Shown here piece after piece: positions 61,571-62,030 of a DNA stretch of 64,000 nucleotides. Position 1 is the stretch's first letter. The number at the start of each line of letters is the position of its first letter. The position numbers and the translations under genes were made by a program. The notes beneath the pieces were generated by a model. That model was not told the DNA's origin and did not search any database. It saw nothing but the letters and a program-made list of their open reading frames with translations. This DNA is from Candidatus Omnitrophota bacterium (GTDB lineage: Bacteria > Ratteibacteria > UBA8468 > B48-G9 > DTJG01), in contig JAMWCD010000002.1 of NCBI GenBank assembly GCA_023818965.1, positions 80,817 to 144,816 on the forward strand, given 5' to 3'.

Positions 61571-61709
61571 GGTTTTCCCCTTTTTAAGAAAACCATCCAT
61601 GTTCAATTTCTATTTTAATTCATAAAAAAATTTTTTCAATATGAAAGAATTTTGATTTTTGGGTTTGAACAGAATAAAAAAATACAAAGGTGGCTAAAGG
61701 ATATGACTC

Positions 61710-61764
61710 TCCCATTCTCGTCCCGCTTACGGGTTAAAAAAGGAAATAGGCCGCGCAGGACTCG
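61710..61764 (+). repeat. direct repeat copy 1: tRNA-Lys 3'-end fragment plus 3' flank
   Basis: TCCCATTCTCGTCCCGCTTACGGGTTAAAAAAGGAAATAGGCCGCGCAGGACTCG; matches 61841-61896 with 2 C/T changes and one 1-nt indel. Confidence 0.9.
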
Positions 61765-61840
61765 GCGGCTTCGCCTCCCACTACGGCTCAGCTCGGCCAC
61801 CCGCATAGGTCTTCGCTTGCTCAGACCTAAACATCTTCGC

Positions 61841-61896
61841 TCCCATTCTCGTCCTGCTTATGGGTTAAAAAAGGAAAATAGGCCGCGCAGGACTCG
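61841..61896 (+). repeat. direct repeat copy 2: overlaps the 3' end of the intact tRNA-Lys
   Basis: TCCCATTCTCGTCCTGCTTATGGGTTAAAAAAGGAAAATAGGCCGCGCAGGACTCG. Confidence 0.9.
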
Positions 61897-61951
61897 AACC
61901 TGCTACCCCCGCCTTAAAAGGGCGGTGCTCTGCCAGGTGAGCTAGCGGCCC
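61879..61951 (-). tRNA. tRNA-Lys (anticodon UUU)
   Basis: GGGCCGCTAGCTCACCTGGCAGAGCACCGCCCTTTTAAGGCGGGGGTAGCAGGTTCGAGTCCTGCGCGGCCTA folds as a cloverleaf; loop CTTTTAA. Confidence 0.95.
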
Positions 61952-62030
61952 ATTGGAGACAATAATTTTACTGGAAAATATAAAATATGTCAAAATTGAA
62001 AAGTTTTCCTGACTGTGGGAAAATTATTCT

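Follow-up and report, generated by a model that had tools for sequence, protein, structure and literature searches.

A probable family of small mobile elements targeted to the T-loop of tRNA genes in genomes related to a Candidatus Omnitrophota bacterium

The stretch analysed here, referred to as the window, comprises 64,000 nucleotides of a Candidatus Omnitrophota bacterium (assembly GCA_023818965.1, contig JAMWCD010000002.1, positions 80,817 to 144,816 of the forward strand) and contains a short, hairpin-forming element inserted at the 3' side of a transfer RNA (tRNA) gene, tRNA-Lys(TTT). Two direct repeats (61710-61764 and 61841-61896), which differ by two C/T transitions and one A indel, enclose a 76-bp insert with a GC content of 61.8%, against 36.6% for the window, and with a 7-bp inverted repeat (TAGGTCT at 61806-61812 and AGACCTA at 61823-61829). 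When the sequence was re-examined, the direct repeats, the GC-rich insert and the inverted repeat were all located where an initial annotation, made from the letters alone, had placed them; that annotation had proposed either the footprint of a deleted tyrosine-integrase island or a non-autonomous palindromic element targeting tRNA ends. The repeat copy at 61841-61896 extends into the tRNA-Lys(TTT) gene (61878-61952, minus strand), and the conserved core of the element (~61765-61845) is longer than the 76-bp insert. Read along the minus strand, the tRNA gene is followed by a short flank or linker, an inverted copy of the T-arm termed anti-T (GCAGGACGAGAA), a core of ~81 nt, and a terminal repeat in which a second CGAGTCCTGCGCGGCCTA and flank are followed by a second anti-T and by six bases that open another core, at which point the array breaks off. 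The features are the following.

61878-61952, minus strand: tRNA-Lys(TTT), the gene that hosts the insertion and remains intact (ARAGORN; Rfam RF00005, 62 bits).
61879-61896, minus strand: duplicated target, first copy, from T-loop C56 to the tRNA 3' end, CGAGTCCTGCGCGGCCTA (from the sequence; C56 boundary in 68 of 77 arrays).
61858-61877, minus strand: flank or linker from the tRNA end to anti-T, at other loci usually with a CTTCTTTGAAA-like ending (from the sequence).
61846-61857, minus strand: anti-T, inverted copy of the tRNA-Lys T-arm, with GA in place of TC relative to the exact reverse complement (from the sequence; own-tRNA match test on 54 units).
61765-61845, minus strand: conserved element core (covariance-model match of 78.5 bits, L001:1556-1657; covariation).
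61806-61829, minus strand: hairpin P1, TAGGTCT / AGACCTA (8 modelled pairs, each changed on both sides across the family).
61765-61801, minus strand: hairpin P2, with two conserved GA/GA oppositions (9 modelled pairs, each changed on both sides across the family).
61747-61764, minus strand: duplicated target, second copy, from C56 to the tRNA 3' end (direct repeat).
61715-61746, minus strand: flank or linker and anti-T, second copy, with anti-T at 61715-61726 (direct repeat).
61709-61714, minus strand: second core, truncated start TGGGAG (comparison with the full core).

This arrangement is probably a single member of a family, spread across the phylum, of structured, non-autonomous mobile elements of ~100 nt that are targeted to the T-loop. 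The initial annotation had advised searching for the insert and the repeat elsewhere, and the assembly does hold about 15 unit copies, beside tRNA genes wherever the neighbourhood was read; thus, the repeat in the window is not a chance feature. The region matches 13 places in its own genome by BLAST, and those that were read adjoin the tRNA genes for Lys(CTT), Tyr, Ser(TGA) and Val(GAC), the tRNA-Tyr array consisting of three tandem units with a 130-bp period. Further hosts were recognised in the sequence downstream of tRNA genes in the same assembly, namely Gly(GCC), Met, His and Leu(CAG). In every array the tRNA 3' end is that of the host gene and never that of another tRNA, and most tRNA genes of this genome are free of the element.

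A covariance model built from 19 copies and run on 35 genomes of the phylum detected the element in 30 of them, with up to 28 copies each; the maximum is in G007, and G014, G016, G023, G026 and G032 gave no match. Among 104 distinct copies, 96 lie on the same strand as, and 3' of, a tRNA predicted by ARAGORN, covering 29 anticodons, and the first unit usually begins 9-23 nt past the tRNA; the remaining copies are found at contig ends, beside tRNAs missed by ARAGORN (L227 and L231), in the tRNA-Ser chimera described below, or are unexplained (two, L180 and one in L109). Relatives found by BLAST are confined to the same genus, family, order and class, together with one weak match in genome G053 (L059), which was rejected as a family member, being a GC-rich sequence with no tRNA nearby. 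A scan of about 85,000 species genomes with an exact pattern, which divergent relatives could escape, gave 43 stretches and no spread to other phyla: all of them come from metagenome-assembled genomes (MAGs) of the clade, labelled Omnitrophota, TA06, Vermiphilus, Ratteibacteria or simply 'bacterium', save two chance matches (L081 and L111). A viral origin was also considered and rejected, since the exact pattern did not match viral contigs of IMG/VR. In genome G007, contigs C12, C27, C35, C53 and C58 end within or near an element, as expected if near-identical copies break the assembly. The family accounts for such contig breaks and for false 'att-like' tRNA repeats in these MAGs.

The junctions of the element follow a precise geometry. 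The downstream tRNA copy starts exactly at C56 in 68 of the 77 arrays surveyed and at T55 in 7, and the identity of the duplicate typically ends between the last tRNA base and about 10 nt past it, longer values occurring mostly in arrays with further units. From this survey of starts and ends, the 3' end of the core is joined at a fixed bond of the T-loop, T55/C56, and the 5' join is variable near the tRNA 3' end. Insertion therefore duplicates the segment from C56 to the 3' end (about 18-30 bp) without damage to the tRNA gene, and further insertion or unequal exchange gives rise to tandem arrays.

The initial annotation had also called for a comparison with empty sites in relatives, and this comparison does reveal insertion polymorphism. 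At tRNA-Ser(CGA), genome G007 (L161) is filled and G002 (L160) is empty, with flanks identical at 494/500 and 497/500 positions, and the two differ by one element, cleanly flanked by a 20-bp target duplication. The sequence of the filled site is tRNA...CGAATCCTGCTCTCTCCGCC / TTTACTTCTTTGAAA-GGATTCGAA-TGGAGCG...GGCGC / CGAATCCTGCTCTCTCCGCC / AGTTTTC, and in the empty site CCGCC is joined straight to AGTTTTC. A second pair is found at the tRNA-Tyr upstream of tig, where G018 (L149) is filled, G022 (L151), of the same genus, is empty, and the right flanks match. Anti-T is absent from both empty sites and, therefore, arrives together with the element. Exact loss instead of gain is formally possible at either polymorphic site. 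At tRNA-Lys, where synteny was followed through EF-P, gene order is not conserved and no empty site was obtained. Together with the 29 anticodons and 30 genomes, these filled and empty sites bear out the proposal that tRNA 3' ends are targeted by a small, non-autonomous element forming hairpins.

A chimeric gene lies directly upstream of tRNA-Ser(CGA) in four genomes of two genera (L091 4821-5034, L092, L108 and L163 1438-1650). It joins the 5' part of that tRNA, up to the T-stem, to CTGAAATACAGTGYATTTCTGGATTTCAG, followed by the core of the element and an incomplete tRNA 3' end; its tRNA part matches the adjoining tRNA in each genome read, and it is perhaps a source RNA.

The 5' side (left) of the core is formed by anti-T, a 7-15 nt inverted copy of the T-arm of the host tRNA itself. 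In 54 units, anti-T and the reverse complement of the unit's own T sequence shared 416 matches, and permuting the T sequences among units gave at most 357 in 10,000 permutations. Comparison of cores on shared model columns showed that, between genomes of the genus, cores at one tRNA resemble each other no more than cores at different tRNAs do (1567/2000 permutations as high), and that cores within one genome are more alike (15/2000 permutations). This likeness by genome and not by tRNA implies that the core spreads, or is homogenised, without regard to anti-T, and that anti-T follows the target. At tRNA-Lys(TTT), three genomes (61846-61857 in the window, L074 and L128) carry GGACGAGAA and not GGACTCGAA as anti-T, a change that turns two standard pairs into a GA/GA opposition, as kept in P1 and P2. 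After tRNA-Ala(GGC) of the window's genome (L031) there is an anti-T hairpin, AAGGGATTCGAACCC, without a core, which is a remnant or an intermediate. A pattern count that gave 24 'solo' anti-T sites was set aside as unreliable, most of these sites plainly containing cores that had escaped the pattern.

The same observations bear on another reading, in which the anti-T of a mobile element exists beforehand and guides it by pairing with the T-arm of a tRNA that matches, in the manner of bridge or intron RNAs, the cores being homogenised later by gene conversion between resident copies. The complementarity of anti-T and T is general, anti-T varies mostly at only three T-loop positions, and the young tRNA-Ser insertion bears the commonest anti-T, GGATTCGAA, all of which would suit a guide. 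However, near-identical cores occur in G007 at the tRNAs for Lys, His, Leu, Ala, Val, Ser, Met, Tyr and Gln with at least five kinds of anti-T, each fitting its host tRNA, and the complementarity often reaches stem positions that are specific to the tRNA, so that a guide of this kind seems unlikely.

Two conserved hairpins make up the core. Each of the 17 modelled pairs has changed on both sides across the family; pairing cells amount to 96.4% in the family alignment, against 72.1% when shuffled, and the covariation score is 0.511, against 0.128 when shuffled and at most 0.056 with partners slid. Two biases bear on these figures: fitting the alignment to the model favours the structure, and relatedness among the sequences inflates the shuffle test. 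Most weight therefore falls on the slid controls and on the variety of pair types. P2 keeps its two GA/GA oppositions while the surrounding stems swap between CCC/GGG, GCT/AGC and GCC/GGC (outer) and between GCC/GGC, GTC/GAC and GGC/GCC (inner). Folding of the window copy against shuffles gave z -2.9 as RNA and z -0.55 as DNA, which favours an RNA form of the element but does not prove it. In Rfam 15, only the tRNA and a neighbouring 6S RNA were matched at five element loci, nothing except the tRNA exceeded the threshold at the window, and neither set yielded a ribozyme family for the core.

Strong covariation, location on the same strand at a fixed distance from the tRNA and the difference between RNA and DNA folds would also fit a conserved host RNA, that is, a cis structure that assists processing of the tRNA 3' end or termination of transcription, its copies passing between tRNA genes mostly through recombination. 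Nevertheless, the element is missing from most tRNA genes in the same genome, the empty sites of close relatives adjoin intact tRNA genes, tandem copies reach three, and the core is not conserved by tRNA, all of which make a host RNA of this kind quite improbable. It is even harder to regard the anti-T hairpin as a native tRNA terminator that was present first and beside which the core was inserted: several arrays do end in anti-T and the core-free hairpin at tRNA-Ala(GGC) would agree with this order of events, but that is the only core-free tRNA with anti-T in the window's genome and the two empty sites without anti-T contradict it, so it appears very improbable. Integrase sites in tRNA genes typically show direct repeats that start in the T-loop and stop shortly after the 3' end. 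The deleted-island proposal, under which every repeat would be the att pair of a deleted or miniaturised tyrosine-integrase island, is nevertheless scarcely credible, since one structured core recurs at so many tRNAs, each flanked by its own 3' end, whereas a cut-and-paste circle would bring the 3' end of the donor, the inverted T-arm is left unexplained, and integrase genes do not track copy number. The tRNA fragments that result from island integration have been reviewed (PMC9897764).

A family of mobile elements is the preferred interpretation, and several points weigh against it. Direct polymorphism is limited to two sites; gene conversion between old sites could explain part of the clustering of cores by genome; the conserved core structure could also reflect a host function; the anti-T of tRNA-Lys is an inexact copy of its target; and no enzyme among reverse transcriptases (RVT_1), Cas1, Y1 transposases and tyrosine recombinases tracks the element. 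In these profile searches, which could miss divergent families and included several incomplete genomes, RVT_1 was present in only 3 of the 35 genomes and did not track the element (divergent reverse transcriptases could be missed). Cas1 (PF01867), found in 16 genomes, did not track it either and is absent from G008 (15 copies), G024 (12), G029 (15) and the incomplete G000. The Y1 transposase (PF01797) occurs in 23 genomes and in none of G000, G003, G007, G008 and G024, which have 12-28 copies each. Tyrosine recombinases (PF00589) occur in 34 genomes at about two per genome, whether the element is abundant or not, and are presumably XerC and XerD; no integrase gene was present in the arrays read. 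The mover may be a host enzyme.

From the junction geometry we infer a nick, an intermediate and a copying step. Insertion could be primed at the target by a T-loop nick, and the target could also serve as the template for anti-T, a scheme that is possible but doubtful in its specifics. The strand opposite the tRNA would be nicked at T55/C56, leaving a 3' end that reads ...GGATTYG, and the element would be joined to, or copied from, this nicked end, which would give the precise 3' junction. A cut of the other strand near the tRNA 3' end would produce the 18-30 bp duplication, and anti-T would derive from fold-back copying of the target T-arm. The folded hairpin of anti-T, core and T would probably be recognised, as RNA or as single-stranded DNA, by an enzyme possibly supplied by the host.

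Several known systems share part of these features. Islands and phages that integrate into tRNA genes by means of tyrosine integrases also duplicate the tRNA 3' end from the T-loop and leave the host tRNA intact; the starts at C56 and T55 in the arrays resemble this pattern. However, the element is ~100 nt long, lacks integrase and cargo, enters many kinds of tRNA gene with duplication of each one's own 3' end, and carries an inverted T-arm copy. Casposons (see PMC10359463), which use Cas1-type integrases, include some that insert at the 3' ends of tRNA genes with duplication of a short target, whereas several copy-rich genomes here lack Cas1, the T-loop bond is precise on one side only, and the element has no fixed terminal inverted repeats, its inverted segment following the host tRNA. 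Repetitive extragenic palindromic sequences (REPs) and bacterial interspersed mosaic elements (BIMEs), mobilised by REP-associated tyrosine transposases (RAYTs) of the Y1 type, are likewise small, hairpin-forming, non-autonomous and present in many copies per genome, but the element is bound to tRNA T-loops and copy-rich genomes lack Y1 transposases. Short interspersed nuclear elements (SINEs) and other target-primed retroelements share the precise 3' junction, the variable 5' junction, the target duplication of variable length and the short RNA-like body; however, reverse transcriptase was undetected in 32 of the 35 genomes and the inverted end of the element matches the target. Miniature inverted-repeat transposable elements (MITEs) are also short, non-autonomous and flanked by a target duplication, but here the inverted repeat follows the target and is not fixed by the element, the duplication is long and variable, and no cognate transposase was found in a search that covered only some transposase families. 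Mitochondrial double-hairpin or repetitive hairpin-forming elements (PMC2800124) resemble the family in having short, paired hairpins and in spreading from site to site; they are not known to be specific for tRNA T-loops or to have target-matched ends. A palindrome about 10 bp downstream of tRNAs in Methanopyrus kandleri is unrelated to the element (PMC5217627).

The family may, tentatively, constitute a new class of very small mobile element that docks universally at the T-loop of tRNAs, copies its own terminal inverted repeat from the T-arm of the tRNA entered, and has no dedicated reverse transcriptase, Cas1, Y1 transposase or integrase, relying perhaps on host enzymes of tRNA processing or repair. 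Its novelty is argued by elimination: it lacks features that define tRNA islands, casposons, REPs and SINEs, and Rfam contains no match to it, although discovery of the enzyme could still assign it to a known superfamily. No description of these elements was found in the open-access literature searched, subscription papers lying outside that search. If this is correct, a mobile element of one phylum enters many kinds of tRNA gene without disrupting them, with ends that match each target, a strategy that, to our knowledge, occurs in no described transposon, integrase element or retroelement; a T-loop-nicking enzyme, an RNA or single-stranded DNA intermediate, and the involvement of host tRNA enzymes would then be testable.

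Other features were observed around the arrays. Many copies of the element contain an insert, a second double hairpin of ~70 nt whose loops are GATGAATAAAGA and GAGATGTGA-like and share the P1 loop motif (L006 1628-1786, L002 1620-1690, L091 5196-5430 and L108). A 6S RNA gene lies just upstream of tRNA-Tyr (L147 593-772 and L149 541-726), and a C-rich palindromic repeat of the type CCCCTCC...GGAGGGG often abuts the right end of the arrays (L002, L008, L009, L010 and L031).
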